Source of the DNA: Candidatus Thorarchaeota archaeon
GTDB taxonomy: Archaea; Asgardarchaeota; Thorarchaeia; Thorarchaeales; Thorarchaeaceae
Length of the DNA stretch: 64,000 nt
Direction: 5' to 3'
Assembly (NCBI GenBank): GCA_016933575.1
Contig: JAFGAR010000064.1
Coordinates: 62,001-126,000, forward strand
Shown: positions 1-16,483 of the stretch, one piece after another
Layout of the letters: every line of letters starts with the position of its first letter
How positions within the stretch are numbered: the first letter of the stretch is position 1
Program-made: the position numbers and the translations under genes
Notes under the pieces: model-generated
The model's database searches: none
What the model saw: only the letters and a program-made list of their open reading frames with translations
What the model was told of the DNA's origin: nothing

Positions 1-326
1 GTCTGAACAAACTCAGTGGCAACAGCAAACGGCAGAGCTTCATTAAAACTACCCCCCACTGCTTCACAACTTAGTGTCGTGAGAAGAGACCTAACATGTT
101 TTCCTCCTGCTTGAAGAAGATGCTGTGCAGTATCATATAGTATCTCTGGCTCTCCTCGCTCTGACTTGAAAACTCTGATAATCTCTTCATCAATGATTGC
201 AAGTCGCTTGTGTAACTCCTTACTGGCACGGAGATCAATCTTTTGTCTTCGGAGTTGCCTTGATGAATTTTCATTATCATCTAAAGCAGTTTCCAAGATG
301 TCAATATCTTTGCGAGGGTCAGGCAT
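1..326 (-). CDS. Polyprenyl (geranylgeranyl-type) diphosphate synthase, N-terminal part
   Basis: This gene is read leftward and runs off the left edge; about 108 codons are visible from an ATG at 326. The visible protein has the N-terminal pattern of trans-isoprenyl diphosphate synthases: a helical start, then LLQAGGKHVRSLLTTLSCEA and ALPFAVATEF, matching the family's GGKRxRPLL and ALPxAxAxE segments just before the first aspartate-rich motif, which lies outside the window. In archaea these enzymes condense isopentenyl diphosphate with allylic diphosphates to make the C20-C25 chains of ether lipids. The usual GGKRxRP is here GGKHVRS, so one diphosphate-binding arginine is replaced by histidine. 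Chain length cannot be judged because the DDxxD motifs are missing. A different short open frame over the same bases is a shadow. Confidence 0.75.
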   Translation of the reverse strand, partial: MPDPRKDIDILETALDDNENSSRQLRRQKIDLRASKELHKRLAIIDEEIIRVFKSERGEPEILYDTAQHLLQAGGKHVRSLLTTLSCEAVGGSFNEALPFAVATEFVQ

Positions 327-435: not shown

Positions 436-1659
436 CTATTCGTAAATCTCCTCAAGTCCATCCCAAGTTAATCCCATTGCTTCTGCAACAAGGACCGCTA
501 GGTCTTTGACAGTCTTGTTGCATCCCGCCTGTGGTAATTGATCTTTCATGTATTCCACACACGAAGGACATCCAGAAGCAACAACATCCGCTTGGGTCCT
601 CTCTATATCCTGCGCTTTCAACTTCCCAATATCTGCGGCAAATTCGTGATCAAAAGCCCGAAGGACACCACCACTTCCACAGCAATAACAATTATCCTTG
701 TTATGCGGCAGTTCTTCGAACTCAACGCCGGGTAGAGCGGCAATGATATCTCGTGGTTCATCATAGAAACCTGAGTTACGTCCAGCATCACATCCATCAT
801 GATAAGTGAGTTTGATATTGAGGGGCTTTGTAAATTTGATCTTGTCCTGATCTATGAGTTCCTTTATGTACGAATATCCATAGACAACTTCGAAACCATG
901 ATCAATATTCAGGAACTCTTTGTATTCATGAGCCCACATTTTGAAACAGCCCGGGCAATTTGTGATTATTCTCTTCACCCCAAGTTCCTTATATCTCTCG
1001 ATGTTATGTTCTGCTAGTGTACGTGCGCCTTCAAAATCGCCAGTCATAATCAACGGTGCTCCACAGCAATATTCCTCCTCGCCAAGGACTGTGTAATCCT
1101 CACCTATATTATCCATTATAAGCGTCGTTGCGATTGTTGCCTGAATTGACACACCTCTGTAAGATGATGAACATCCAAAGAAGAATGCAGTCTCTGCTGA
1201 TTTTCCTTGTCTATTGAGAAGGTCATCTTCATTCGGTGTCCAATAGGACCACCCTTCAATCCTATCCATCTGCGACTGACCCTGTATATTGCAGGTCTTG
1301 AGGAGGGTCTCTTTTGCAGTGTTCATTGACTCAGGCCACATACCACGTTTCATGAATTCTCCTCGAAGGACCTGGTAAATCTTGACGAAGGGTATGTCAG
1401 TCTGACAGATTTCCTCACAACCTCCGCAGAGCGTACAACCGAATATTGCATCCTTTAAGCCTTCTAATCCATCTGTTGGACTTATTCTCCCTTGTATCAG
1501 CCCTCGAGCAAGAAGCATCTTGCCTCTCCCAGAATAGCTATCTACACGCTTTACTTTGTATGTCGGACAGGCTCCATGTCCAATCTGGCAATAGCTACAT
1601 TGGGCACATATGTATGGAAATTCTTCGAGCCCATATTTCCGTAATGCTGGGAAGTCCAT
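436..1659 (-). CDS. GlpC/HdrD-like iron-sulfur oxidoreductase with two CCG domains
   Basis: A 407-residue soluble electron-transfer protein. The N-terminus has two ferredoxin-like cysteine clusters: CAQCSYC followed by a fourth Cys after six residues (about 18-31), and CTLCGGCEEIC (about 75-85). Two CCG domains follow, with EEYCCGAP and NCPGC, then HDGCDAG, NCYCCGSGG and SGCPSC. This is the layout of GlpC, LutA/LldE-type and HdrD-type subunits, which take electrons from flavin dehydrogenases of the GlcD family and pass them on. Here the neighbouring divergent gene, 200 bp away, encodes exactly such a flavin domain fused to NuoB, so the pair probably works together (inference). A GGAG site lies about 10 bases before the ATG. 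No membrane segment is seen. Confidence 0.85.
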   Translation of the reverse strand: MDFPALRKYGLEEFPYICAQCSYCQIGHGACPTYKVKRVDSYSGRGKMLLARGLIQGRISPTDGLEGLKDAIFGCTLCGGCEEICQTDIPFVKIYQVLRGEFMKRGMWPESMNTAKETLLKTCNIQGQSQMDRIEGWSYWTPNEDDLLNRQGKSAETAFFFGCSSSYRGVSIQATIATTLIMDNIGEDYTVLGEEEYCCGAPLIMTGDFEGARTLAEHNIERYKELGVKRIITNCPGCFKMWAHEYKEFLNIDHGFEVVYGYSYIKELIDQDKIKFTKPLNIKLTYHDGCDAGRNSGFYDEPRDIIAALPGVEFEELPHNKDNCYCCGSGGVLRAFDHEFAADIGKLKAQDIERTQADVVASGCPSCVEYMKDQLPQAGCNKTVKDLAVLVAEAMGLTWDGLEEIYE

Positions 1660-1859: not shown

Positions 1860-3800
1860 ATGGGGCTCAAACATAAACAGATTGATCAGCTCAAAGAGAT
1901 TTTTGGAGACCGTGTAGTCACGGCTAAACATGAGCTATTTCTTCAATCCATGGATGTGGGTTCTCTTCCAAAGCAGGTTGGCTGGTTGATGAATCTCAAA
2001 CCAGATGCTATCGTTCAACCAATGACCCCTGAAGAGATTCGTTCACTCTATAAATTCGCAAATGCGGAAAAAATCCCTCTGGTTCCTAGAGGCGCAGGCA
2101 CTTCTGGCTATGGTGGTGCAATACCACGAAAAGGAGGCGTTGTTGTTGATATGCGCCGTATGGATAATATTGTAACAGTTGATGAGAAGAATCTGACCGT
2201 TGTTGTAGAACCCGGTATCTGCTGGTCCAATCTTCAACTAGAACTCAATCGACTTGGTCTCGACCTACGCTGCTATCCCTCATCTGCCCTCTCCGCCACA
2301 GTTGGAGGCTGGGTAGCCCAAGGAGGCGATGGGATAGGTAGTTTGAAGTATGGGACTATCAACAAGAACTGTGTTGAATTTGAAGTAGTTCTTCCAAATG
2401 AGAAGATAATTCGTACAAGTGATACAGATCTCTTTTGCGATACAGAGGGTATCCTTGGTATACTGACAAAGGTAACCCTAAAGATTAAGCCCTTGACCAG
2501 GATCAAAGCCTTTGTCTCTAGCTTTCCAGAGAATTACCTAATGAATCTCGCAATCGAGAAGATTCTAGAAGACGGTCCACTCCCTTTCACAATAAAATTT
2601 GAAGAATCTAAATACACAGACTTGAAGAAGTCTGTCTGGGAGGAGGACTGGAAATTCCCGTATCCTGTTCATCACTGTACTATTATGGTCGTCTACGAAG
2701 GTGATGAAGAAGAGATCGAGACCGGTGCTGAAGTGGTTCGCCAAGTCACAGAGGCTCACAAAGGAGTCCTATATGATGACCATGTAGGCGAGCACGAGTG
2801 GCATGAGCGATTCTACCCAATGAGAATCAAGAAGGCCGGACCTACCCTTGTAGTTGGACAAGCATTTGCACCACTCGAAAACTTAGGTGCTATCTTTGAT
2901 GACTTCCAGTTTGAACAGGCATCTGCGAAGGCAGGTATTGATGGTTATGTCAATTCTAAGAACGCAGTCACAATGATGGGATATTTTCTCGAAGATGAAC
3001 GTCGTTCTTTCTATATGCTATCATGGTCTCAGAGCTTTGTCATTTTCAAAATTGCGCAACGTCACGGTGGACATCCACATTCAACTGGTATATGGTTCGC
3101 TAATTATGCACATATTTACTTCGGCAAACAGAGATTAGCTCGAATCCGAGCAGCGAAGCTGAAGTGGGATCAAAAAGAGATTTCGAATCCTGGTAAAATC
3201 TTTGCATATTGGCTTCCCTTCATGTTACGTGTGGGCAAGTACTTCATGTGGATTGGTTTCGATTTGCTACGGAATGGTTTTGGCAGGATTGCACCAATTC
3301 TTCTGAAATGGCTTCAGAATGTACCACCACTGAAGTGGTTATTACGGTGGGGTCGCGCTCACAGTCCTTGGCCGATTCAATACGGACTCGGGTGTTGTAT
3401 GGCTGATGGCGCAGCCGCAGTAGCATCACGATGGGATATAGAGAGATTCGGGATGCTCCCTCTCTTTGGACCCCGGCAGACGGATGTCCTTTGGATCTCA
3501 GGATCCCTTACAAAGAAGATGGCACCACGACTTCGTCGAATCTATGAACAGATGCCAGAGCCAAAGTATGTCATATCCTATGGCCAATGTGCAGCATCTG
3601 GTGGAATGTTTTTCGATGGATATTCTTTAATCGCTCCTGCTGATACGGTCGTGCCAGTGGACGTCTATATCCCCGGCTGTCCTCCCAAACCTGCTGACTT
3701 TGTGAGAGCTCACTTGATTTTACAGAACAAGATACGCGCTGGGACTACACACTGGCAAAAACGGTACGAGAATCAGGATTCGATGGGGTTGATTCAATAA
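1860..3800 (+). CDS. GlcD-type FAD-linked dehydrogenase fused to complex I subunit NuoB
   Basis: A 646-residue fusion. Residues about 45-225 form a PCMH-type FAD-binding domain with PRGAGTSGYGGAIPR at 76-90 and VGGWVAQGGDGIGSLKYG. Residues about 225-460 form the FAD-oxidase C-terminal part, ending in the family signature ISNPGKIF. After a hydrophobic, basic linker (about 460-505), residues 505-640 are a complete NuoB: YGLGCC, GQCAASGG and PGCPPKP supply all four N2-cluster cysteines (Cys512, 513, 577, 607) at normal spacing, and LTKKMAPRLRRIYEQMPEPK is typical. NuoB normally stands alone at 150-220 residues. The fusion should put a flavin dehydrogenase directly on the terminal cluster of complex I. 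The substrate is unknown; 2-hydroxy acids are usual for GlcD relatives. The stop overlaps the next start. No frameshift or internal stop separates the halves. Confidence 0.9.
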   Translation: MGLKHKQIDQLKEIFGDRVVTAKHELFLQSMDVGSLPKQVGWLMNLKPDAIVQPMTPEEIRSLYKFANAEKIPLVPRGAGTSGYGGAIPRKGGVVVDMRRMDNIVTVDEKNLTVVVEPGICWSNLQLELNRLGLDLRCYPSSALSATVGGWVAQGGDGIGSLKYGTINKNCVEFEVVLPNEKIIRTSDTDLFCDTEGILGILTKVTLKIKPLTRIKAFVSSFPENYLMNLAIEKILEDGPLPFTIKFEESKYTDLKKSVWEEDWKFPYPVHHCTIMVVYEGDEEEIETGAEVVRQVTEAHKGVLYDDHVGEHEWHERFYPMRIKKAGPTLVVGQAFAPLENLGAIFDDFQFEQASAKAGIDGYVNSKNAVTMMGYFLEDERRSFYMLSWSQSFVIFKIAQRHGGHPHSTGIWFANYAHIYFGKQRLARIRAAKLKWDQKEISNPGKIFAYWLPFMLRVGKYFMWIGFDLLRNGFGRIAPILLKWLQNVPPLKWLLRWGRAHSPWPIQYGLGCCMADGAAAVASRWDIERFGMLPLFGPRQTDVLWISGSLTKKMAPRLRRIYEQMPEPKYVISYGQCAASGGMFFDGYSLIAPADTVVPVDVYIPGCPPKPADFVRAHLILQNKIRAGTTHWQKRYENQDSMGLIQ

Positions 3801-4738: not shown

Positions 4739-4988
4739 CTCCTTTGAGTGATGTTTGTTTGGGCGAATGGTTTTTAACATGCATTCAGAATGCGCCTGCT
4801 TAAGTTCGAAAGTACGGAACGTGACCATAAATGGTGATGTGCTGTGCAAGCCAGGATCAAAGATGCGGAGCTTAGAGAATGAAACATTTGTGCACTGAAA
4901 CCGCAAGAGATAGATATTGCAGACAAGAAGTCATTTTCCACAACTCACCTGGCGCTGAGTTTTCACTCTAGGAGGTCTATTGATTACG

Positions 4989-5432
4989 ATGAGGCTTTTC
5001 ATCGATTTCTTCCCGGTGCTTGTCTGGGCAGTATTAGTTATTGTCCTGATTCTCGGAATGTTAGTTGGATCTTGGGTATTGAGGCCTCATGTTCTCCAGA
5101 ATAGTGAAAAGACATCGAGCTACGAATGCGGTGAAGAACCAATAGGCCCCGCAAGAATTGCCTATCCCTACAACTATCTTGTCTATACTATCCTGTTTGT
5201 TGTTGTTGATGTGCTTGGCGCATTTCTGTGGTTACTTGCTGCATCCTCTTTTCGATTGAGCCCGACAATCGTTTGGCAAGTCCTTGTATTTGTGCTGATT
5301 CTTATGGGTGGTCTCGGCTTTGCCATGAAGATGCTTCCCCAGACTTTCCTCAGTGGAAAAGAAACTCTAGCACTATATCGCGAAGCTAAGGCTGCAAAGG
5401 AAAAACAAGAGCTTGAAGCAGGAGGTCACTGA
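4989..5432 (+). CDS. nuoA: Complex I subunit A (NuoA/FpoA)
   Basis: About 147 residues with three membrane helices. The family signature is present: helix 1 ends in RPHV, then SYECGEEPIGPARI (YECG is the hallmark), followed by a helix with the conserved acidic segment VVVDVLGAFLW. It sits at the interface of the peripheral and membrane arms next to NuoH, J and K. GGAGGT at 4971-4976 lies 12 bases before the ATG at 4989; a TTG at 4980 would be too close, so I take the ATG. It opens the main run of subunit genes and is 4 bases from nuoJ. Confidence 0.9.
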   Translation: MRLFIDFFPVLVWAVLVIVLILGMLVGSWVLRPHVLQNSEKTSSYECGEEPIGPARIAYPYNYLVYTILFVVVDVLGAFLWLLAASSFRLSPTIVWQVLVFVLILMGGLGFAMKMLPQTFLSGKETLALYREAKAAKEKQELEAGGH

Positions 5433-5436
5433 AGAG

Positions 5437-6081
5437 ATGCAACTCGATATATGGTTTGAAGAGGCTGAGTTCATTGTAATTGCTGCCATTGTCATTTTTC
5501 TTGCATACCTTGCACTGGAACATCGTGACATTGTCTACGCGGCATTCTTTTTTGGCTTCATGGCCTCTTTTGTTGCTGGTTTCTTTCTATTGCTTGAAGC
5601 ACCTTTCATTGCAGGTATGCAGATCGCTGTATACACTGGAGGGATTAGTGCATTGATAATCTTCGCAGTGCTTCTTCTACCCCGAGCCCAAGACTCTTCC
5701 TTGGAGGTCTTCGCTTCGCCTAGAAGAAGGAATGCTGGATTGGTACTATCAGCGATGGTTGGCTCATTGTCAGCAGCCCTAGCCCTCGTTTTTCCATGGT
5801 ACGAAACTTTCTCATCAGTGACTCCGCCACTTGAGAACAATCTTGAACTTCTCTCAAAATGGCTCTGGTCTGATCATGGTATCTATGTTCAGATGATTGC
5901 TCTCATCCTTCTCACAGCAATTGTTGGATCTATTGCTATTTTGAAGATGGAGAAAGCAGAACGTCTCACACCTATAGTAAGTGATTTTGGTGTTGAGTCA
6001 GTTCCTGAACCAATTGATGACGAAGCATCTGATATTGAAGATGAATCCCCGCAGAATGGGACTGAGGAGGTTGATACATAA
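5437..6081 (+). CDS. nuoJ: Complex I subunit J (NuoJ/FpoJ)
   Basis: About 214 residues with five membrane helices. The diagnostic helix 3 segment is seen as FIAGMQIAVYTGGISALIIF, equivalent to the family's QIxVYxGAIxVLxxF stretch that holds the pi-bulge helix. The start at 5437 is chosen because GGAGGT at 5421-5426 lies 10 bases upstream; a start at 5413 would overlap nuoA. The protein ends in an acidic tail of about 35 residues. Its stop overlaps the ATG of nuoK. Confidence 0.9.
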   Translation: MQLDIWFEEAEFIVIAAIVIFLAYLALEHRDIVYAAFFFGFMASFVAGFFLLLEAPFIAGMQIAVYTGGISALIIFAVLLLPRAQDSSLEVFASPRRRNAGLVLSAMVGSLSAALALVFPWYETFSSVTPPLENNLELLSKWLWSDHGIYVQMIALILLTAIVGSIAILKMEKAERLTPIVSDFGVESVPEPIDDEASDIEDESPQNGTEEVDT

Positions 6082-6401
6082 TGGTCCCCCTCTCCTGGTA
6101 TCTGGTGGTGGCGTTCATTCTCATAGGTCTCGGAATCTATGGAATGATGGTCAAGCGAAATCTCATACGTATTCTAATTGGAGCTGAAATCCTTGGTAAT
6201 GGAGTCAACATTGCCCTAGTTGCTGTTTCAATCTACAGCCCTGTCTTCACATTTACGGGACAGGGTTTACTCATGCTGGTGATCTCTGTGGCAGCAGCTC
6301 ACACAGCTCTTGCGATGGTTCTGATGCTTATTTACAATCAACGATACAAATCAGTTGACCTTGGTAGACCATTCAAACTGGAGGATGATAGCAATGCCTG
6401 A
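6081..6401 (+). CDS. nuoK: Complex I subunit K (NuoK/FpoK)
   Basis: A 106-residue, three-helix protein of normal family length. It has the typical GIYGMMVKRNLIRILIGAEI, whose glutamate matches the buried glutamate needed for proton transfer in helix 2, and a second conserved acidic position is replaced by the AAAHTALAMVLML stretch of helix 3. The ATG overlaps the stop of nuoJ (TAATG), and the coding end overlaps the start of nuoC by 8 bases, so it is translationally coupled on both sides. Confidence 0.9.
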   Translation: MVPLSWYLVVAFILIGLGIYGMMVKRNLIRILIGAEILGNGVNIALVAVSIYSPVFTFTGQGLLMLVISVAAAHTALAMVLMLIYNQRYKSVDLGRPFKLEDDSNA

Positions 6402-6903
6402 TGCATCGTCACTGGGTCGTGCAATCATCAATAAGCTGCCTGAGGTCGAGTCTAAACCACTTCAGGGAAATAAGATCGAGCTCCTGGTCCCTCATGAGAA
6501 AATTCGAGATGTGGTATCACTTATTGACGAATTGGTTCCCGATGCCTTACCCGAATCTGCATTTGGCATTGATCTTGAGGATGACAAATACGAAGTAGTC
6601 TACATATTTTGGTCTCATGAATCAACGATGCTCTGTCAGTTACGAGTTTCACTTGTAGGGGAGAAACCATCAATTCAGACTGTTAGCGACATATTTCCTG
6701 GGTTGGAATGGCATGAGCGTGAAACTAGTGAGATGTTCGGTATCACCTTTGAGAACCATCCTGACATGAGACCTCTCCTGCTGCCTGATGATTTGGTTGG
6801 AAAATATCCCATGAGAAAACGATTCAAGACCGATCGAAGTCGCCTTGAAGAAACTGGCCTTTCAACCCCTAGTCCTAGACCTGAACGTGGAGGTGGCGAA
6901 TGA
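6394..6903 (+). CDS. nuoC: Complex I subunit C (NuoC, 30-kDa type)
   Basis: About 169 residues. The C-terminal half carries the NuoC signature: FPGLEWHERETSEMFGI, then HPDMRPLLLPDDL and KYPMRKRF, close to the family's WxERExxDMFGI and RxLLPDDWxGxPLRKDF. NuoC supports NuoD and NuoB in the Q-module and binds no cofactor. GGAGG at 6380-6384 lies 9 bases before the ATG at 6394, which is preferred over in-frame ATGs further upstream. The gene is separate from nuoD, unlike the NuoCD fusion of enterobacteria. Confidence 0.9.
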   Translation: MPDASSLGRAIINKLPEVESKPLQGNKIELLVPHEKIRDVVSLIDELVPDALPESAFGIDLEDDKYEVVYIFWSHESTMLCQLRVSLVGEKPSIQTVSDIFPGLEWHERETSEMFGITFENHPDMRPLLLPDDLVGKYPMRKRFKTDRSRLEETGLSTPSPRPERGGGE

Positions 6904-8040
6904 ATGTGTCCAGATATCCTTGATGAAACCAGTGAGATCTGGTTTGGTCCTCAACATGTCAGTGCTCATGGGTGGGCTACAAAACTGAAACTTGTTGGAG
7001 ACTACATTGTCGAGTGTGACCCGAATGCTGGATATTTCCATCGTTCGGCTGAAAAATGTCTAGAGTTCCGTAATTTCAGGCAAGGTTCAATGGTATGTGA
7101 ACGTATCTGCATGATGGAAGCATTCGTTGCAGAATATCCCTATGTGGCTGCAGTCGAGAAGATTGTTGATCTTGAGGTCCCAGAACGCGCGAAAATCATG
7201 CGTACTATCATGATTGAGATGAATCGGATTCATTCTCTTCAGTTTTGGTGGGGTCAATTTGCAGGGGAGTTAGGTCTCTTTGCGATGCTGCTTTGGCCCT
7301 GGGTTGATAGAGAATATACACTTGATGCTTTTGAGGAACTGACTGGGTCTCGTCATACTGTATCCTATGTCACACCTGGCGGGGTTAAGTATGATTTCAC
7401 TCCCAAGTTCTTGGAAAAATTTGAAATTGCACTCTCTAGAGTGGAAGAACGAATCCCGATCTTCAAGGACATGTTTCTTGGTAGCCCTACGTTCAGGTTA
7501 CGTACCGAGGGAGTAGGTCAGTACACTGCAAAACAAGGTCTCAAGTGGGGCTTGAGTGGTCCTAATATCAAAGCTTGTGGTATTCCAATGGACCTCCGTA
7601 AGGATGACCCTGACTCGAATCTTGCATATGATATGATTGATTGGGAAGTACCCATTACAATAAACGAGAATCATCCTGGTGAATGCGATGCATTTGACAG
7701 ACTAGTTCAGCGATTCAAAGAAATTGAGACTTCAGTTGGTATTATCAGAAAGCTCTTACCTCTTGTCCCTGAAGGTCCAATCATTGACCCCAAGGCTCGA
7801 GCCAAAGTCAATCGTCTACCTGAAGGAGAGGGTTATGGTAGGATTGAGGGTACTCGTGGAATCACAACCGTTTGGTTGAAGACATTCGATAAGGCTCAGA
7901 CTCCATATAGAGCCAAAATACGTGGTCCTTGCTTCGCATCATATTATGCATTGAAGCATATTGTGCCAGGTGCTCGTTTTGCGGACTTTCCAGCGATATT
8001 TGGAAGCTTGGATCCTTATCCCGGGTGGTGGGACAGATAG
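6904..8040 (+). CDS. nuoD: Complex I subunit D (NuoD, 49-kDa type) with atypical active site
   Basis: A 378-residue protein of the NuoD/[NiFe]-hydrogenase large-subunit family. The N-terminal FGPQHVSAHG keeps both histidines (18 and 22) of the quinone-site loop. Where NuoD normally has DRLDYVSxM, with the quinone-binding tyrosine, this protein reads CERICMMEAF (Cys65, Cys69). That keeps the first cysteine of the hydrogenase ERxCGxC motif but not the second, and has no tyrosine at the matching place. The end, DPYPGWWDR, lacks the C-terminal DPCxxC. It is therefore not a [NiFe] hydrogenase, and quinone chemistry at this site would have to differ. An RGITTVW segment and the rest align well by eye. 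It follows nuoC directly and precedes nuoH. Confidence 0.85.
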   Translation: MCPDILDETSEIWFGPQHVSAHGWATKLKLVGDYIVECDPNAGYFHRSAEKCLEFRNFRQGSMVCERICMMEAFVAEYPYVAAVEKIVDLEVPERAKIMRTIMIEMNRIHSLQFWWGQFAGELGLFAMLLWPWVDREYTLDAFEELTGSRHTVSYVTPGGVKYDFTPKFLEKFEIALSRVEERIPIFKDMFLGSPTFRLRTEGVGQYTAKQGLKWGLSGPNIKACGIPMDLRKDDPDSNLAYDMIDWEVPITINENHPGECDAFDRLVQRFKEIETSVGIIRKLLPLVPEGPIIDPKARAKVNRLPEGEGYGRIEGTRGITTVWLKTFDKAQTPYRAKIRGPCFASYYALKHIVPGARFADFPAIFGSLDPYPGWWDR

Positions 8041-8053
8041 GAGGTGCGATGAG

Positions 8054-9199
8054 ATGCAGTTCGATTTCATAACTTGGCTTGACGGGCTTTATAATTGGTT
8101 CATCGGTCTCTTGATCTGGTTTTGGAATGTCATTGAATGGTTCTTCTTTTGGATCATTGATCTTATCAATGGAGTATGGGCCATAGTAATAATCCCTGAG
8201 AATTTCATGTTTCTATTCCGTTCTATTATATTCCCTGGACTCATCTTCATCGTGCTTGCACTCATTTTCAGTATCTGGTTCATCCGGAAGACATGGGCAC
8301 GAATTCAGGATAGACGTGGACCGACACATATGGGCAAGTATGGTGGTCTACAATTGTTTGCGGATGCAATCAAACTCATGGCTAAGGAAACAATAATTCC
8401 CGACAAGGCAAGACGTTGGGCTTATAGGATTCTACCTTCGTTACTCCTCTTAATTGTACTACTTCCCTTCGCATTCATACCCTGGGATCCAATATGGAAT
8501 ATTCTTGGAAATCCTGCCTTTCCCGACCTTTCTGTGAGCCTAGTGCTAGTCTTTGCATTTCTCACTGCAGTGCCTGTACTCTCACTACTAATCGGTTGGG
8601 TCTCAGGTTCCAAGTATTCTCTGATTGGAGGATTTCGAGCTGCAAATAACCAATTTGCCTCCGAGATACCCATGGTCATTTCTTCTATTGGTCCTGCAAT
8701 GCTTGCTGGTTCTCTGAGTCTCTTCGGAATTGTTCAAGCGCAGACCAGCATCTGGTACATTGTTCTTCTCCCAATCAACTTTACCACCTTCATGGTTGCT
8801 GCAATTGCCTCTGTAGGAACGTTTCCCTTTGATGCTCCCGTTGCAGACTCCGAGATTATCTTCGGGTGGCGAACAGAGCTATCGGGCATCTACTTCACGT
8901 TGGTCTATTTTGCTGAGTTTGCCGAACAAATGCTTTACTCAGCCTTAATGGTTGTACTCTTCTTTGGTGGTTTTAATGGACTTCCATTCTTACCAGGAAT
9001 TGTCAATTTCCTAATCAAGTGGCTTGTCGTATTATTCATCTTTGTAGTTGTGACATCTTCCTTCTATAGAATCAGACAGGACCAGATAGTGCACCTTTGT
9101 TGGAAATACTTACTGCCACTTTCAATACTTAATGTAGTTCTTGTCATGTTTGCAGTTGTCTACATACCAGGACTACTTCCGCTTGTGATAGGAGGATAA
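8054..9199 (+). CDS. nuoH: Complex I subunit H (NuoH)
   Basis: About 381 residues with eight or nine helices. Family signatures are DRRGPTHMGKYGGLQLFADA (the xRxGPN-like loop and helix), ETIIPDKA, SEIPMVISS, and FDAPVADSEIIFGWRTELSG, which form the quinone-channel wall at the arm junction. The N-terminus is longer and richer in Trp and Phe than usual (about 60 residues before the core). GGAGGTG at 8040-8046 lies 7 bases before the ATG at 8054, overlapping the stop of nuoD, and sets this start. It is 4 bases upstream of nuoI. Confidence 0.9.
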   Translation: MQFDFITWLDGLYNWFIGLLIWFWNVIEWFFFWIIDLINGVWAIVIIPENFMFLFRSIIFPGLIFIVLALIFSIWFIRKTWARIQDRRGPTHMGKYGGLQLFADAIKLMAKETIIPDKARRWAYRILPSLLLLIVLLPFAFIPWDPIWNILGNPAFPDLSVSLVLVFAFLTAVPVLSLLIGWVSGSKYSLIGGFRAANNQFASEIPMVISSIGPAMLAGSLSLFGIVQAQTSIWYIVLLPINFTTFMVAAIASVGTFPFDAPVADSEIIFGWRTELSGIYFTLVYFAEFAEQMLYSALMVVLFFGGFNGLPFLPGIVNFLIKWLVVLFIFVVVTSSFYRIRQDQIVHLCWKYLLPLSILNVVLVMFAVVYIPGLLPLVIGG

Positions 9200-9203
9200 T
9201 GCG

Positions 9204-9635
9204 ATGGGTTTCCTAAGTAATCTTGGTGAAATATTTCAAATCCTGAAACACGTCTTTCGTCAAACATTCAAAAGACCATTCACTTACTTCTATCCATTTG
9301 AAGACAGACCTTATCCTGAGAGAACCCGTGGCAGACACATCCACATTCGTGAGAACTGTACTGCATGTGCTCAGTGTGTGAGAGCATGTCCTGTTGCAGC
9401 AATTCGTATTGACAAGGAAGATAGAAAGTTCGAGAAGGATGCAGCTCTCTATTTTGATTATACGCGTTGCATTTTCTGCGGAGATTGCGTCAGTGCCTGT
9501 CGATTCGATGCACTTTTCCATACGAAAATCGTGGACCTCTCGGAGGGTGACCGTGATGACCTTATCTATGGCCCTGATAAGATAACAAAACTCGATAGAG
9601 ACCCTCTTGAGTGGCGTGGAAGGAGGTTCAGGTAG
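9204..9635 (+). CDS. nuoI: Complex I subunit I (NuoI, 2x[4Fe-4S] ferredoxin)
   Basis: A 143-residue protein with two [4Fe-4S] motifs, CTACAQCVRACP and CIFCGDCVSACR, separated by about 40 residues as in NuoI. The N-terminal amphipathic stretch (about 1-35) matches the membrane-surface helix of the family. It passes electrons to the N2 cluster of NuoB. With no NuoE, F or G gene present, its electrons would come from a ferredoxin-like donor or from the dedicated partner proteins of this locus. Its stop overlaps the GTG start of the next gene by one base. Confidence 0.9.
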   Translation: MGFLSNLGEIFQILKHVFRQTFKRPFTYFYPFEDRPYPERTRGRHIHIRENCTACAQCVRACPVAAIRIDKEDRKFEKDAALYFDYTRCIFCGDCVSACRFDALFHTKIVDLSEGDRDDLIYGPDKITKLDRDPLEWRGRRFR

Positions 9636-11134
9636 TGTTGTTTGGAATTCCCTTCATGGCACTATCACTCGCCGTGATGTTCATCGGAGGTCTCTTCATC
9701 TACCTGTTCAAGGCTAGCATTGGCGATGCAGCTGGTAGAATTGCAGTTGCTGTGTCTCTTGTAGGAACCATCCTGATGATTCCTCCATTCTACGAGCTCA
9801 TGATGTTTGGCTCATCCGTTGAAACAGCAGTATGGTCAAATCTACTTGAGCCATTTGGGCTGTACTTGGATCCAATTGCATTTCCAATCACTTTTGCTGT
9901 AGTAGTTCTTGGATTTCTATCAGTTGTCTATGCGGTGGGTTATACCAAACATACTGAGAACAAACCTACTTTTTTCGCAAATCAATTGTTCTTCATAATG
10001 GGAATGACATGGGTAACTCTTGCGACTAATATGATCGAGTTCTTTATAGCTTGGGAGCTTATGTTGGTGCCAAGCTACTTCCTGATTCTGTTCTGGGGTT
10101 TCCCTGAAACCAGAAAACGTACTGCTCTGAAATTCTGGTTGTACACACAATCTGGAGCTGTCTGTATCCTGATAGGCTTTGGACTTCTCTATGCTCAGGG
10201 TGGTTCATTTGTTCTGGCAAATATTGTTGCTAATGGTGACCTCATCTTCAAGGTCATTTTCATACTTCTAGCTGCTGGATTCCTTGTGAAAATGGCAGTT
10301 TTCCCAATCCACTGGTGGTTACCACCAGTTCATGCTGAGGCTCCAACTCCAATCTCAGTCCTATTGTCTGGTGCTATGATTGAAACCGGCGCCTATGCTC
10401 TGGTACGATTCGGTACCCTGACCCTTTACGATGCAGCGATATCGCTCTCAATCTGGGTAGCTGCACTCGGTGTTATCACGATGTTCTATGGCGGTTTCAT
10501 GGCACTAGCTCAGGTGGACATCAAGAGACTCCTTGCTTACTCCTCCGTTTCACAGATGGGGTACGTACTATTTGCTCTCGGTTCTGTTACAATCATAGGT
10601 GTTTCAGGTGGAATGTTCCATCTCATCAATCATGCTTTCTCAAAGGGTCTGCTGTTTATGACCGCTGGAGCTGTTATTCATCAGACCGGACTTCGTGATA
10701 TTAAGAAGATGGGAGGTCTCTCAAATAAGATGCCTATCACCGCCTTCGCAGCTGCCATCGGAATGATGAGCATTGCCGGTAGTCCTCCGCTCTCCGGATT
10801 CGCTTCGGAGTGGATGATGTTCCTCGGGGGATTTAATCGTGCTATAATTACCGATCCATTTACCCATATTGTCCTAGGAACTAACTTACCATTTCTGATT
10901 TTAGCAATTTTAGCTGTTTCCAGCTCTATCCTCAGCGCAGCATACATGCTTCGTTTCTTCTGGCGAGTCTTCCTTGGGCCTCATCCCGAAGAGCTCGAAG
11001 ATGTTAAGGAAAGTCCAAGATCCATGACCATTCCGATGATCATCCTTGGTGTCCTCATTGTAATCTTTGGAATATTCCCGAGCTTGGCACTAGATGTCAT
11101 TGTCCCGGCGTTTTCGAGTGCACTTGGTCCGTGA
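9635..11134 (+). CDS. Complex I antiporter-like subunit, first NuoM-like copy
   Basis: A 499-residue Mrp-antiporter-type subunit with about 14 helices. Key charged residues are kept: the glutamate in FIAWELMLVPSY, the lysine in FLVKMAVFPIHWWLPPVHA, and the acidic residue in GFASEWMMF. It is most like NuoM/FpoM, which makes it an extra antiporter-like subunit because a second NuoM, a NuoL and a NuoN follow. The GTG start at 9635 is set by AGGAGGT at 9621-9627, 7 bases upstream, overlapping the nuoI stop. Each such subunit is thought to move protons, so a fourth could raise the H+/2e ratio (inference). Confidence 0.85.
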   Translation: MLFGIPFMALSLAVMFIGGLFIYLFKASIGDAAGRIAVAVSLVGTILMIPPFYELMMFGSSVETAVWSNLLEPFGLYLDPIAFPITFAVVVLGFLSVVYAVGYTKHTENKPTFFANQLFFIMGMTWVTLATNMIEFFIAWELMLVPSYFLILFWGFPETRKRTALKFWLYTQSGAVCILIGFGLLYAQGGSFVLANIVANGDLIFKVIFILLAAGFLVKMAVFPIHWWLPPVHAEAPTPISVLLSGAMIETGAYALVRFGTLTLYDAAISLSIWVAALGVITMFYGGFMALAQVDIKRLLAYSSVSQMGYVLFALGSVTIIGVSGGMFHLINHAFSKGLLFMTAGAVIHQTGLRDIKKMGGLSNKMPITAFAAAIGMMSIAGSPPLSGFASEWMMFLGGFNRAIITDPFTHIVLGTNLPFLILAILAVSSSILSAAYMLRFFWRVFLGPHPEELEDVKESPRSMTIPMIILGVLIVIFGIFPSLALDVIVPAFSSALGP

Positions 11135-11144
11135 GGTGAATCAA

Positions 11145-13397
11145 ATGCTCTTTGGTCTACCAGAATATCTAATCATCGTCATTCCACTTGCAGGTTCCTT
11201 ATTTGTCCCAATAATTGGGAGGTATAGTACTCGTGCTAGAGACTGGACTCCTGCATTGTTGATGGGCATCTCTATGATTCTATGCTGGTCTCTCATACCT
11301 GACATTGGATCAGTCCCTAAGACCTGGAATTGGATCAACATTCCTGGACTTGTGATTCCCTTTAGTATGCTTCTTGACTCACTGTCCGTCATCATGGGTG
11401 TACTTGCTAGCACGCTCTGTTTTCTCATATACGTGTACAGCACCGAGTACATGGCACACGAGGGAGATAGAGACCGCTTCTTCTTCCTGATGCTTGCCTT
11501 CGGGGGTGGTATGCTTACCCTGGTCCTCTCAAACAACCTCCTGATTGCGTTTATTGGATGGGAGATCATGGGATTTTGTAGTTACGGACTCATTGGTTTC
11601 TGGAATGACAAGCGCAATCCTCCAGAGGTAGACCCAACTGGCTATGAGTCAAGTAATCCGTTGCTGCAGTTCAAGACCGAGGGCGAGTACAATACTCATT
11701 GCGGAACAAAGGCTTTCGTGGTAACAAGAATTGGTGACGCACTGATGCTGGGCGGCATCCTGCTTCTATTTACATTCACAGGGTCATTTCTCTTTCAAGA
11801 CACATCAATTGGAAGTCAGGCTGTTGAAGGTATTGCAGAACATGGCGGCTGGATAACTGCCCTAGCTGGTGTGGGTCTTCTGTTGCCCACGCTTTTGTTA
11901 ATCTTTGCTGGCGCGATTGGAAAGTCAGGTCAATTCCCTCTGCAGGTATGGCTCCCCGAAGCCATGAGTGGTCCGACTGCGGTTTCTGCTTTGATTCATG
12001 CTGCAACCATGGTCAAAGCAGGAGTCTATATCACTGCAAGATTTCTCTTGACAATCGTATCTGCTACAGAGACAAGCGGACACTCTTCATCTGCTATTGG
12101 GATGTTTCCGCTACAGATAGGCTTCCCTGATGCGTTCACCTTCTTTGCCATAGTTGCAATCGTTGGTGCTCTCACCGCATTCATTACTGGTACAATGGGA
12201 ATGGTCTCAAATGAACTGAAGCAGGTGTTGGCATTCTCAACTCTTAGCCAACTAGGCTATATGATGCTTGCAATAGGTACTGCTGGCATGTTGACGCATT
12301 ATGATGTTGCTTATCTGAGTAGCGTCATGCATGTCGTCAGTCATGGTGCATTCAAAGCGTTGCTGTTTCTCTCATCTGGTGGGATTATCCACGCGTTACA
12401 TACCAAGTATATGAGTAAGATGGGCGGGTTGAAGAAGTATATGCCCAAGACCTTTGCGCTTATGTGGATTGGAGTGCTAGCGTTGTCAGGAATTCCTCCA
12501 TTCTCAGGTTTCTGGTCAAAAGACTCAATCATAGAGCATGTATATGCACTTGGTGTTGAAACGCCTCTGGGAATTTTCCTGTTCATTCTTGCTATCGCAG
12601 CTGCGGCTTGTACAATCTTCTATAGCATTCGACTCATGGGAATGGTCTTCTATGGCCCATCAGAGTTTGACGAACATGACCAAGAGGAGGAATCAATCAG
12701 TAGCCATAATGACAAAGAGGAATCCGAAGAATCTCATGACGAACATCGCGGGGTACCCTCTGATCCAGGTCCAGCTATGATGATTCCGCTCTACATTCTA
12801 GCAGCATTCACTATCATTGCCTTCATAATCTATCCAATGATACAGAATATTGTCCTCCAGACTAATAGGGACTTGTTTATCATATTTCTTGAGGATATGG
12901 TAGCTGCGAAATTTGGTCCAGAAGGTTTAGTTCCCTTCACACTCACCATTGGAGCACTTGCTCTTGGTGGGATTCCAGCCTATTGGATTTACATTAAAAA
13001 CCAAGATACTCCAAACTCAATCATTCCAGAGAATGGAATTCTTAGGAAGTTGCACAACTTCTTGAAGCACCGCTGGTATATCAATGAGGGATACTATTGG
13101 TTTGTCAACAAGTTCCTCAGATTTGCTGATCTCTGGCGCAGGGAGATTGATGAGCCTATAATTGATGGCATTGACTTCAAGTCTGCAGCCACAGCCCAGG
13201 TACTTGCGACTAAGATTCGATGGTTTGATGATAATGTTGTGGATGGTTTTGCTGAGGCCGTGTCAACAAAGAGTGTTGAAGCTTCTGAGGTTGGACTTGA
13301 GTCTCAGACAGGAAAGATCAATGACTACGTCGGAGTGGTGATTTTCGGAGTAGGTCTCCTGATCATCATTGGACTTCTATCATTGGGGGTGCTCTAA
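11145..13397 (+). CDS. nuoL: Complex I antiporter-like subunit L (NuoL), elongated
   Basis: About 750 residues, clearly longer than the usual 610-650. The core has GWEIMGFCSYGLIGFW, KSGQFPLQVWLPEAMSGPT and GIPPFSGFWSKD, typical of NuoL. A His- and acid-rich loop follows near residue 505-540. The C-terminal region, which in NuoL forms the lateral helix along the membrane arm, has two copies of a D-x3-(I/V)-D-G motif 26 residues apart (DEPIIDG at 669-675 and DDNVVDG at 695-701) before the last helix. A longer lateral helix would be needed to span a second NuoM. GAGGTGA at 11133-11139 sets the ATG at 11145. Confidence 0.9.
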   Translation: MLFGLPEYLIIVIPLAGSLFVPIIGRYSTRARDWTPALLMGISMILCWSLIPDIGSVPKTWNWINIPGLVIPFSMLLDSLSVIMGVLASTLCFLIYVYSTEYMAHEGDRDRFFFLMLAFGGGMLTLVLSNNLLIAFIGWEIMGFCSYGLIGFWNDKRNPPEVDPTGYESSNPLLQFKTEGEYNTHCGTKAFVVTRIGDALMLGGILLLFTFTGSFLFQDTSIGSQAVEGIAEHGGWITALAGVGLLLPTLLLIFAGAIGKSGQFPLQVWLPEAMSGPTAVSALIHAATMVKAGVYITARFLLTIVSATETSGHSSSAIGMFPLQIGFPDAFTFFAIVAIVGALTAFITGTMGMVSNELKQVLAFSTLSQLGYMMLAIGTAGMLTHYDVAYLSSVMHVVSHGAFKALLFLSSGGIIHALHTKYMSKMGGLKKYMPKTFALMWIGVLALSGIPPFSGFWSKDSIIEHVYALGVETPLGIFLFILAIAAAACTIFYSIRLMGMVFYGPSEFDEHDQEEESISSHNDKEESEESHDEHRGVPSDPGPAMMIPLYILAAFTIIAFIIYPMIQNIVLQTNRDLFIIFLEDMVAAKFGPEGLVPFTLTIGALALGGIPAYWIYIKNQDTPNSIIPENGILRKLHNFLKHRWYINEGYYWFVNKFLRFADLWRREIDEPIIDGIDFKSAATAQVLATKIRWFDDNVVDGFAEAVSTKSVEASEVGLESQTGKINDYVGVVIFGVGLLIIIGLLSLGVL

Positions 13398-14978
13398 TTG
13401 CAGGTAGACTCTACAACTTTGATAACAAGTATTCCAATGAATATCCTCGTCCTCATACTTGTCATTCCTCTAGTTGGTGCGGTCCTTGCATACATCGCAG
13501 GCAGCAAGGGTGCACGTGCAATCACACTCCTGATTACGACACTCGAACTAGGCTTAGCCCTTCTACTCATTCTAGGTACTCCTTCAGTTGGTCCAGATCC
13601 TGGTGGAATGAGTTACACATGGATCTATACGATTGCGAGACTTGGAACCACTGTTGATTCTCCTGTCTTTCAAATCATTCTTGGTGTTGATGGAATCTCA
13701 GTAGTAATGATCCTCCTCTCCAATCTCGTCGTATGGATTGCAGCAATTGCATCAAATCATATCAAGAACGCAGAAGGTGTATACTACTCCTTATTCCTGC
13801 TCCTGCAGACAGGCCTCCTTGGAGTTTTTGTATCTCTTGATCTCATTGGATTCTTCATCTTTTGGGAACTTGTCCTTGTACCAATGTTTTTCATCATTGG
13901 CAGATGGGGCGAAGATGGAAGCAGACACGCGGCTATCAAGTTCTTCATCTATACTCATCTTGGTTCTGCAGTAATGCTCGTTGGATTCTTCTACATCTAT
14001 TTCATGTCTTATCAGTTCAATATTCTTGGATATCCAACTGCAGTCCCAACATTCAGCATGGTTGCGCTTCGGAACATCGGACTTGACCCAACCATTCAGA
14101 TAGGTTTTGCTCTTGCCATATTCATGGGTGCAGGCGTGAAACTTCCAGTATTTCCATTACATAACTGGTTGCCATGGGCTCACGTAAAGGCACCAACTCC
14201 TGGTTCAGTTATCCTCGCTGGAATTCTTCTGAAGATGGGTGGGTATGCATTCATCAGACTCGGACTTTGGATGGTCCCAGAAGCAATGGCTAGACTTGCC
14301 ATTCCCTTTGCCTTTGTGGCTGTCTTCACATGTATCTACGCTGCATTTACCGCACTTGCTCAGACTGATATGAAGAGCCTTGTAGCTTATACGTCTATCA
14401 ACCACATGTCATGGGTCCTACTTGGCGTTGCTGCGTATGCGGCTGCCTACAATTCTCCAGATGCAGCTATTCGAGCTGCTGCGAACTTGGCTATCCAAGG
14501 TTCTATATTCATGATGTTCTCACACGGCACCATAATCTCTGTCATGTTCATTGTAGCTGGGCAGCTCAAATATAGTGTAGGTACTCGTGAGATTCCCGAA
14601 GTTAAGGGATTGATGACACAGGCTCCTAAACTCTCAGCGATTATGATCATTGCTACCTTGGCAGCTTTCGGTCTTCCTGGATTTAGTGGATTCATAGCAG
14701 AGGCACTGGTCATCTTTGGAGCCATTGTCATTCATCCGTGGACCGCATTCATCGCGTTTGGCATTTTCTTGACAGTAGGCTACATGCTCTGGATGTTAAA
14801 TCGAATTGTCTTTAGTGATATTGACCCCGAAAAAAGCGTGAATGAAGCCGCACGAAGCGATCTCATTGCTCCAATCCTCATGTTAATTCCTGTGATTCTG
14901 CTTGGGATTTGGCCTGATCTGATATTGAATCTCGTTCAACCAGTTGTTGAACTGATGCTGAGCGGAGGTTTACCATAA
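13398..14978 (+). CDS. nuoM: Complex I antiporter-like subunit M (NuoM)
   Basis: A 526-residue NuoM with the classic FFIFWELVLVPMFFII, GVKLPVFPLHNWLPWAHVKA and GGYAFIRLG segments and GFSGFIAEALVIFGA. The essential glutamate and lysines for proton transfer are all present. It matches canonical NuoM better than the first copy (9635-11134), so that copy is probably the extra one. A TTG start at 13398 follows a G-rich stretch (GGGGGTG, 13385-13391) and abuts the nuoL stop; an ATG at 13437 is an alternative. Confidence 0.9.
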   Translation: MQVDSTTLITSIPMNILVLILVIPLVGAVLAYIAGSKGARAITLLITTLELGLALLLILGTPSVGPDPGGMSYTWIYTIARLGTTVDSPVFQIILGVDGISVVMILLSNLVVWIAAIASNHIKNAEGVYYSLFLLLQTGLLGVFVSLDLIGFFIFWELVLVPMFFIIGRWGEDGSRHAAIKFFIYTHLGSAVMLVGFFYIYFMSYQFNILGYPTAVPTFSMVALRNIGLDPTIQIGFALAIFMGAGVKLPVFPLHNWLPWAHVKAPTPGSVILAGILLKMGGYAFIRLGLWMVPEAMARLAIPFAFVAVFTCIYAAFTALAQTDMKSLVAYTSINHMSWVLLGVAAYAAAYNSPDAAIRAAANLAIQGSIFMMFSHGTIISVMFIVAGQLKYSVGTREIPEVKGLMTQAPKLSAIMIIATLAAFGLPGFSGFIAEALVIFGAIVIHPWTAFIAFGIFLTVGYMLWMLNRIVFSDIDPEKSVNEAARSDLIAPILMLIPVILLGIWPDLILNLVQPVVELMLSGGLP

Positions 14979-16483
14979 TGCTGCAATTAGACATCTTGCT
15001 TGACAGCCTAAGGGCTTTATTAGCCCCTCTAAGAGACCTATTGCTCGCAATTGTACCAGCTGAATGGATCATGTCCCTTCCTGCTATTACTCTGGTAGTC
15101 TTTGGATTACTTGCCCTAATGGTCGGACTTCGATATAATCCATTAGTCATAAGCTTCATCGGTGTCATTCTTGCAACATTTGAGATGCTTCTGTTCGATC
15201 CCAGTGCTATGAGTGGCTATTCGTTTGGAACATTATTCATTCGCGATGCTTTCACCGATTTCTTCATCTACATTGTTCTTATCGTTGCTTTCCTAGTCTT
15301 GCTCTCTTCCACTCTTTGGGGGGGTGACAAAGGGACCTACAATTTCCTACTTCTCCTCTCTTTTGCAGGAGCTCTCTGGGTAATTATGGCGACAGATCTT
15401 GTAGCTCTATTTCTTGCCTGGGAACTGATGTCCACGCCAACTTATGTTCTCGTTGCTCTTAGTCCAAGACGGGAATCTGTAGATGGCGCTACAAAATACT
15501 TCGTTATGGGCTTGCTTGCAACAAACCTCATGCTACTTGGCATTGCTCTGACTATTGGTGTTACTGGAACCACTGACCTTCACACCATTGGAGTGTTCAT
15601 TAATAGCCTATGGGCTTCACCAGCTGGTAGTGAACCAGCGGTCTACACAATGCTTCTTGCAATGGTCTTGTTTATTGTTTCATTCGGATTCAAGGTCGGT
15701 ATATTTCCTGGATGGCAATGGGTTCCTGATGCATATGCAAGTGCTGATGGTAGTGTCACTGCTTATCTTGCAGGAGGTTCTAAAAAGACAGGAGTGAGTG
15801 CCCTTCTACGAATCTTGATGGTTGCATTCTTTGTTGCTAGGACTGAGTGGACTCTATTAATAGCTGGTGTAGCAATCCTAACAATGATCATTGGTAATCT
15901 ATTAGCTCTCGCTCAGAAGGATATCATGAGGATGTTAGCGTATTCCAGCATTGCGATGATGGGTTATCTCTTCATTGGTATCGCCGCAGCTAACGAATTG
16001 GGCATGGCTGCAGCTAGTTTTCATGCATTCACTCATGCAATAATGAAGACAGCTGCCTTCATCCTTGTGTGGATGCTATCTTTAAGACTCACGAAGAGAA
16101 TAACCTATGATGACCTCGCGGGATTGAACAAGCGAGCACCCATTGCAGCAGCTATGTTTGCCATACTGATGCTCTCTCTTGCAGGACTTCCTGTAGGTGT
16201 AGGGTTCTGGTCAAAATTAGTACTCTTCCAGAGTGCAATCCTCGCAGACATGTGGTGGTTGGCTTTGATAGGTCTCTTGAACTCAGTCTTCTCCTTGGGC
16301 TATTATTTACGAATACTGAAATATACTTACATGATTGAACCTGTTGATGACTCGAAATTAAATCTACCAAGAGTACCCCTATTTGCAGTAGGCATTTGTG
16401 TAGCTATTGTTCTCTTGCTGTTGGTATTTCCAAACCTTGTCCTTGATTATGCCTTTCAAGCGGCATTGACCTTCTTCCCATAG
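14978..16483 (+). CDS. nuoN: Complex I antiporter-like subunit N (NuoN)
   Basis: A 501-residue NuoN: AWELMSTPTYVLVAL with the conserved glutamate, SFGFKVGIFPGWQWVPDAYA with the lysine, then KTGVSALLR and VGFWSKLVLF. The start overlaps the nuoM stop (TAATG). It is the last gene of the operon, with 52 bases to the convergent GTPase gene. I see no clear hairpin terminator in that gap. NuoN binds closest to NuoJ, K and A in the membrane arm. Confidence 0.9.
   Translation: MLQLDILLDSLRALLAPLRDLLLAIVPAEWIMSLPAITLVVFGLLALMVGLRYNPLVISFIGVILATFEMLLFDPSAMSGYSFGTLFIRDAFTDFFIYIVLIVAFLVLLSSTLWGGDKGTYNFLLLLSFAGALWVIMATDLVALFLAWELMSTPTYVLVALSPRRESVDGATKYFVMGLLATNLMLLGIALTIGVTGTTDLHTIGVFINSLWASPAGSEPAVYTMLLAMVLFIVSFGFKVGIFPGWQWVPDAYASADGSVTAYLAGGSKKTGVSALLRILMVAFFVARTEWTLLIAGVAILTMIIGNLLALAQKDIMRMLAYSSIAMMGYLFIGIAAANELGMAAASFHAFTHAIMKTAAFILVWMLSLRLTKRITYDDLAGLNKRAPIAAAMFAILMLSLAGLPVGVGFWSKLVLFQSAILADMWWLALIGLLNSVFSLGYYLRILKYTYMIEPVDDSKLNLPRVPLFAVGICVAIVLLLLVFPNLVLDYAFQAALTFFP

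Follow-up and report, generated by a model that had tools for sequence, protein, structure and literature searches.

It is an open question in the field what donates electrons to relatives of complex I without NuoEFG, and what accepts them in anaerobic archaea. In a 64,000 nt stretch of a Candidatus Thorarchaeota archaeon assembly (GCA_016933575.1, contig JAFGAR010000064.1), referred to in its whole length as the window, a complex I operon is headed by a gene for a FAD-linked dehydrogenase domain joined to NuoB. What kind of enzyme does the flavoprotein part represent, with which partner does it work, and what is it doing on complex I?

The fusion gene and its operon

The features of the locus are listed in Table 1. 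From its N- to its C-terminus, the fusion protein consists of a FAD domain of the GlcD/D-lactate dehydrogenase fold, a 45-residue amphipathic linker and NuoB. The preliminary description had a full FAD domain and a NuoB with four N2 cysteines joined in one frame, and the open reading frame and the Pfam and NCBIfam matches bear this out. Pfam Oxidored_q6 covers residues 512-617 of the fusion protein (86 bits), the best PDB match of the NuoB domain is Nqo6 of T. thermophilus (149 bits), and the N2 ligands (Cys512, 513, 577 and 607) are invariant in an alignment of 23 fusions.

Table 1. Positions of genes, domains and motifs in the window
Feature	Position	Strand	Details
Polyprenyl-diphosphate synthase gene start	1-326	-	Cut by window edge
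HdrD/TfrB-like gene	436-1659	-	407 aa; divergent from fusion; two 4Fe-4S and two complete CCG motifs
FAD-NuoB fusion gene	1860-3800	+	646 aa; single open frame, ATG start, no internal stop
FAD_binding_4 domain, residues 48-187	2001-2420	+	Pfam PF01565, 130 bits, full model
FAD pyrophosphate loop PRGAGTSGYGG, residues 76-86	2085-2117	+	Alignment of 23 fusions
FAD-oxidase_C cap domain, residues 231-447	2550-3200	+	Pfam PF02913, 36 bits; canonical metal/catalytic motifs absent
HSTG, residues 407-410	3078-3089	+	Opposite GEHG of LctD; Glu to Ser, His to Thr
Amphipathic helical linker, residues 448-492	3201-3335	+	Gap-free across 23 fusions
NuoB domain, residues 493-630	3336-3749	+	NCBIfam NF005012, 181 bits (cut-off 116)
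N2 cysteines Cys512 and Cys513	3393-3398	+	
N2 cysteine Cys577	3588-3590	+	
N2 cysteine Cys607	3678-3680	+	
Small membrane protein, 172 aa	3800-4318	+	Three TM-like segments; conserved
Small membrane protein, 124 aa	4322-4696	-	Four TM-like segments; conserved; opposite strand inside operon
NuoA	4980-5432	+	Sequence and conserved operon position
NuoJ	5413-6081	+	Family search
NuoK	6081-6401	+	Family search
NuoC	6355-6903	+	Family search
NuoD	6904-8040	+	Family search; His22 retained, Met70 (7111-7113) at quinone-site Tyr position
NuoH	8051-9199	+	Family search
NuoI	9204-9635	+	Family search; two 4Fe-4S motifs
NuoM, first copy	9611-11134	+	Family search
NuoL	11094-13397	+	Family search; 767 aa
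NuoM, second copy	13398-14978	+	Family search
NuoN	14978-16483	+	Family search

The remainder of a complex I follows downstream in the order A, J, K, C, D, H, I, M, L, M, N, as had been reported, although NuoA is recognised by sequence and position only, its ORF giving no NCBIfam match at 1e-15. Together with NuoB, all of the subunits A, B, C, D, H, I, J, K, L, M and N of a Nuo/Fpo-type pump are encoded. The absence of NuoE, F and G noted earlier was confirmed by profile searches (PF01512, PF01257, PF10588), which gave no match in the window's own genome (85.5% complete), and most near-complete Thorarchaeota genomes likewise lack the three subunits. No FpoF-like ORF was seen in the operon; FrhB-type genes occur elsewhere in the genome (G000:C156).

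Two small membrane proteins are encoded beside the fusion in nearly all Thorarchaeota loci. Neither matches a Pfam family, and the idea that the operon encodes a cytochrome-type partner of known kind was rejected for that reason. At its far end (9611-16483) the operon carries four antiporter-type subunits (NuoM, NuoL, NuoM, NuoN), an arrangement like the '2M' complex I described for Nitrospira (PMC9040806), and the M-L-M order recurs in the Thorarchaeota loci that extend that far.

Distribution and conservation of the joint

The fusion was searched for in 228 genomes of the phylum, 47 from the Thorarchaeota family of the window and 181 from other families. It is present in 32 of the 47 family genomes (29 near full length, three cut by contig ends) and in none of the 181 Asgard genomes of other families. 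Its 24 close relatives in named genomes come from Thorarchaeota MAGs, except for two labelled Lokiarchaeota and one labelled 'archaeon'. Beyond Asgard, the search covered close relatives of the fusion, and distant FAD-NuoB fusions may exist elsewhere. Presence of the fusion follows presence of the complex: among 37 family genomes, the fusion or a contig-end fragment of it was found in all 29 that carry an orthologous NuoD (at least 72% identical, and fragmentary in some), and it is absent from all eight that do not. Related genomes might have shown two separate genes at this place, a test that the fusion withstood.

The joint was considered as a possible error of assembly, a mis-annotated read-through, or a gene giving two proteins by internal initiation. 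The 23 fusion copies were aligned over 646 columns and show no gap at the joint. Mean identity is 84% in the linker (residues 448-492) compared with 75-79% in the FAD domain, and codon differences across the linker amount to 13% at positions 1 and 2 but 55% at position 3, about a four-fold excess, which indicates that the joint is under purifying selection. There is no conserved in-frame start codon in residues 430-513 of the 23 fusions, and the first universal Met (residue 514) lies C-terminal to the first two cluster cysteines; a separately translated NuoB was rejected for want of a conserved start before that Met. Beyond the generic risk of metagenome assembly nothing speaks for an artefact of any of these kinds, and an identical joint in 32 genomes, the gap-free alignment and the selection across the linker make it vanishingly improbable, with assembly error itself ruled out.

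One family member (G016) carries the FAD part unfused, in a genome without this complex I. The fusions and the G016 protein form one fully supported group in the tree, and G016 nests within the fusions on a long branch, with a support (92% SH-aLRT) that is not conclusive. Since its protein also retains the linker residues PPLKW, the nested position and long branch suggest that G016 has secondarily lost NuoB rather than predating its gain.

The FAD domain

An AlphaFold model of the fusion has a mean pLDDT of 78, the FAD part being mostly above 85 and the NuoB half of low confidence. Over the whole length of the FAD protein, the model matches mouse LDHD with a target TM-score of 0.82-0.84, and LctD with 0.81. 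The FAD_binding_4 match runs end to end, the fold is of the D-lactate dehydrogenase type and the pyrophosphate loop is intact, so that the domain is a full GlcD-type FAD domain, as originally claimed. Loop residues 76-86 are invariant in the 23 fusions save for G78, which is Ala in seven.

The donor proposed in the preliminary description, a 2-hydroxy acid, finds no support in the cap domain. When aligned with LctD, GHAGDGNLH falls opposite YVNSKNAVTMMGY and GEHGIG opposite HSTGIW, positions that hold the metal and catalytic residues in the LDHD/D2HGDH family. The fusion has other residues in place of the two His that bind metal in LctD, of the Glu and of the catalytic His, and the substitutes near the second motif are themselves conserved: H407, S408, G410, I411 and W412 are invariant (23/23) and T409 is found in 22 of the 23. 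Because these residues of LctD/LDHD-type enzymes are replaced, a 2-hydroxy acid is unlikely to be the donor, and a hydroxy-acid dehydrogenase identity was rejected on the loss of the motifs. Scores against the models of GlcD (131 bits, cut-off 568) and YdiJ (67 bits, cut-off 1350) fall far short of either family.

A probable HdrD-like partner

The HdrD-like gene on the opposite strand, in front of the fusion, had gone unmentioned, and in this respect the preliminary description was incomplete. Its product is closest to the TfrB model (169 bits, below the cut-off of 385). It contains two CX30-40CCX30-42CXXC motifs, all ten cysteines of which align with HdrB, and it resembles HdrD/HdrB in having two 4Fe-4S and two CCG motifs with all of the Hdr-type cysteines. 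Mycobacterial EtfD, in which one membrane protein of 1042 residues carries linear/noncubane clusters that are non-catalytic, departs from Hdr at Thr539 and His583 (PMC13083937). The HdrD-like protein carries Hdr-like Cys and Gly at these two places and so, unlike EtfD, is without the Thr/His substitutions of the non-catalytic clusters.

Of 24 Thorarchaeota loci, 22 have the gene upstream of the fusion. The spacing between the two was measured at 22 loci, among them the window: it is 165-361 bp at 18, and other genes separate the two at the remaining four. In some genomes the genes inserted there (L037:544-9704, L041:1999-3862 and L045:5180-9424) encode large exported proteins whose N-terminal motifs are CxxCH-like, those of L037 having PKD/Ig-type domains; these are possibly heme-binding surface proteins.

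The same pairing is found where the fusion is not. In G016, the HdrD gene and the unfused FAD gene are in tandem. Two genomes of another Asgard family (G057 and G217) have adjacent FAD and HdrD genes downstream of NuoL-M-N, in a neighbourhood that reads FAD-HdrD-desaturase-UbiA-GGR-polyprenyl synthase (GGR, geranylgeranyl-reductase family). In G060, also of another Asgard family, FAD and HdrD are naturally fused in a single frame of 1070 aa (L074:1547-4759). The conserved neighbour, the same-operon pairs of relatives and the G060 fusion together show that the FAD domain belongs to a two-component FAD-HdrD enzyme, one that also has a life of its own, as the pair persists in G016 without complex I. 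The HdrD-like protein is the probable partner of the FAD domain, gene linkage not being proof of physical association, and the product of the fusion gene is best read as the complex I subunit NuoB with an N-terminal extension that is the FAD subunit of a FAD-HdrD oxidoreductase of two components.

Other GlcD-like/HdrD-like pairs, in rows of three to four, lie close to complex I in Thorarchaeota, namely in L060 (2725-17545), L062 and L063 (genomes G034 and G002). These rows include a desaturase-like flavoprotein and small membrane proteins, one of them DUF2231-like.

Among unfused FAD proteins, the closest ones from other Asgard archaea (G057, G217) have one to two strong C-terminal membrane helices directly behind the FAD domain, as do the two nearest paralog clades of Thorarchaeota. 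At the position of these helices the fusion has no membrane helix; the amphipathic helical linker and NuoB are found instead. NuoB would, on this comparison, take over the role of the usual membrane anchor.

The quinone site and genes for a lipid carrier

The position of the quinone-site Tyr of NuoD is occupied by Met in all 26 Thorarchaeota sequences aligned, and the His is kept. Upstream of the polyprenyl-diphosphate synthase gene that is cut by the window edge lies a gene of the GGR family (L086:17399-18601), and UbiA, polyprenyl synthase or GGR genes stand beside HdrD in most Thorarchaeota loci with sequence on that side. The neighbouring UbiA scores above the MenA cut-off in five loci (L036, L055, L060, L057 and L075); that of the window's own genome lies on another contig and scores below it (L088). 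An assignment of UbiA as a lipid gene (DGGGP synthase) was rejected, since the MenA models score far higher. The L088 region (G000:C57:55000-72000) also holds a separate operon of the group 4 [NiFe]-hydrogenase type, with RICGICS and DPCFSCTDR metal motifs, near the MenA-like UbiA.

MenD above the cut-off was not found in Thorarchaeota and, among the Asgard genomes searched, occurs only in G054 (family f15); MqnA/D was not found in any Thorarchaeota genome. G054, with its true MenD, keeps the quinone-site Tyr in NuoD. A menaquinone complex I was rejected on these observations, and the carrier is not called menaquinone in spite of the MenA-like UbiA because MenD is confined to G054 and MqnA/D is missing from every Thorarchaeota genome. 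On the simplest reading, the carrier would be a prenylated compound other than ordinary menaquinone. The preliminary interpretation stands as far as the fusion and the missing NADH module go, but it had overlooked the HdrD gene, the MenA-type neighbours, the loss of the NuoD Tyr and the paralogous FAD-HdrD pairs. These four features all favour a FAD-HdrD module docked on complex I over a plain hydroxy-acid input.

Proposed working of the complex

Judged from sequence, it is fairly probable that a lipid-carrier-linked FAD-HdrD oxidoreductase is docked, through the NuoB fusion, on a complex I without NADH module, a statement that concerns the assembly and not the route of electrons. The fusion would hold FAD-HdrD next to NuoB/NuoH, where complex I faces the membrane. 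Complex I would probably be fed by reduced ferredoxin at NuoI, and it may share electrons with FAD-HdrD, in either direction, while ions are pumped. The active site of HdrD would be of the thiol/disulfide type or another kind of CCG-cluster site. As for the route, exchange by way of a lipid carrier that passes between the two enzymes on the side where quinone enters is quite possible, and we propose it tentatively, while exchange directly through N2 is rather doubtful. A thiol/disulfide (Hdr-type) complex I, with HdrD seated on the FAD domain of NuoB and electrons running within the complex from ferredoxin through NuoI, N2 and FAD to HdrD, or in reverse, is unlikely; if true, it would mean that archaeal relatives of eukaryotes couple disulfide redox directly to the pumping of ions.

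Two further readings give the flavin a different role. In the route suggested at the outset, the flavin is a direct input: it oxidises a 2-hydroxy acid or some similar donor, and the electrons pass straight to N2, bypassing NADH and ferredoxin. The intact FAD site, the full D-LDH-type fold and the covalent tie to the N2 subunit would all suit such an enzyme, but the metal and catalytic residues of the LctD/LDHD type are replaced, and the FAD family works with an HdrD partner, so that CCG/4Fe-4S clusters are the expected first acceptor; direct input is accordingly quite improbable. Loss of those same residues would fit a FAD domain that is catalytically reduced and serves as a structural or assembly part, building or anchoring complex I by analogy with plant GLDH, a member of the FAD_binding_4 superfamily seen on a plant complex I intermediate (PMC7567890; PDB 7a24). 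Against a purely structural part stand the near-invariant FAD loop and specific HSTG signature, an HdrD partner retained with all of its cluster cysteines, and the FAD-HdrD pair of G016, a genome without such a complex I. GLDH, moreover, attaches not to NuoB but to the membrane arm, on its intermembrane side, and is a transient assembly factor whose own activity is dispensable for assembly (PMC7567890). GLDH and the fusion have in common a VAO-type FAD enzyme physically on complex I, but GLDH is a separate protein, and transience of its kind is unlikely for a FAD domain that is covalently fused. A structural role thus appears distinctly unlikely.

Comparison with known systems

YdiJ and GlcDEF are enzymes of FAD plus CCG make-up. 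The Thorarchaeota pair is like the GlcD/GlcF, LDHD/LctD and YdiJ types in its FAD fold and its partnership with a CCG protein, and unlike them in the absence of the metal and catalytic motifs. The complex itself has no NuoF, which is present in canonical NADH:quinone oxidoreductase, and its operon has no counterpart of the FpoF-type subunit of F420H2 dehydrogenase (Fpo). The best PDB match of NuoD is Pyrococcus MBS (6u8y), a group 4 hydrogenase-like complex, with 205 bits, ahead of the best-scoring 49-kDa subunit of a complex I (183 bits). MBS is also without the quinone Tyr, but the other subunits of the Thorarchaeota complex score best as Nuo/Fpo.

Complex I-like enzymes of 11 subunits without NuoEFG are known, for example from Desulfitobacterium (PMC11238625). 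The Thorarchaeota complex shares with these the absence of a NADH-oxidising module and differs from them in the flavoprotein-NuoB fusion, the two NuoM and the Met for Tyr in NuoD. The closest parallel in overall make-up is that of the Methanomassiliicoccales, which have an Fpo-like 11-subunit complex, HdrD without HdrE, and a set of genes, one of them a DHNA-octaprenyltransferase homologue, for a lipid-soluble carrier of unidentified nature (PMC4153887). Both have a pump without input module, HdrD and lipid-carrier genes. In the Methanomassiliicoccales, however, fpoB is listed as a normal subunit of its own, and the published description of the complex mentions no FAD subunit. In Thorarchaeota, by contrast, NuoB and a GlcD-like FAD protein form one chain, with the HdrD gene adjacent in divergent orientation.

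No description of a flavoprotein-NuoB fusion was found in the literature, mostly open-access, that was searched, in agreement with the earlier claim that none has been described. Complexes without the NADH module are already known; what is new here is one that carries a covalent FAD subunit and, probably, a docked HdrD. In metabolic reconstructions, the labels 'NuoB' or 'glycolate oxidase' would misdescribe the fusion, as would NADH:quinone oxidoreductase assigned to Thorarchaeota. Because the fusion tethers such a complex to a FAD-HdrD module, its partner becomes something that can be tested instead of guessed, and a candidate arrangement is offered for the parallel, unsolved Fpo-like/HdrD chain of the Methanomassiliicoccales. 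The Thorarchaeota arrangement points to an as yet unrecognised means by which complex I could be linked with anaerobic redox chemistry.
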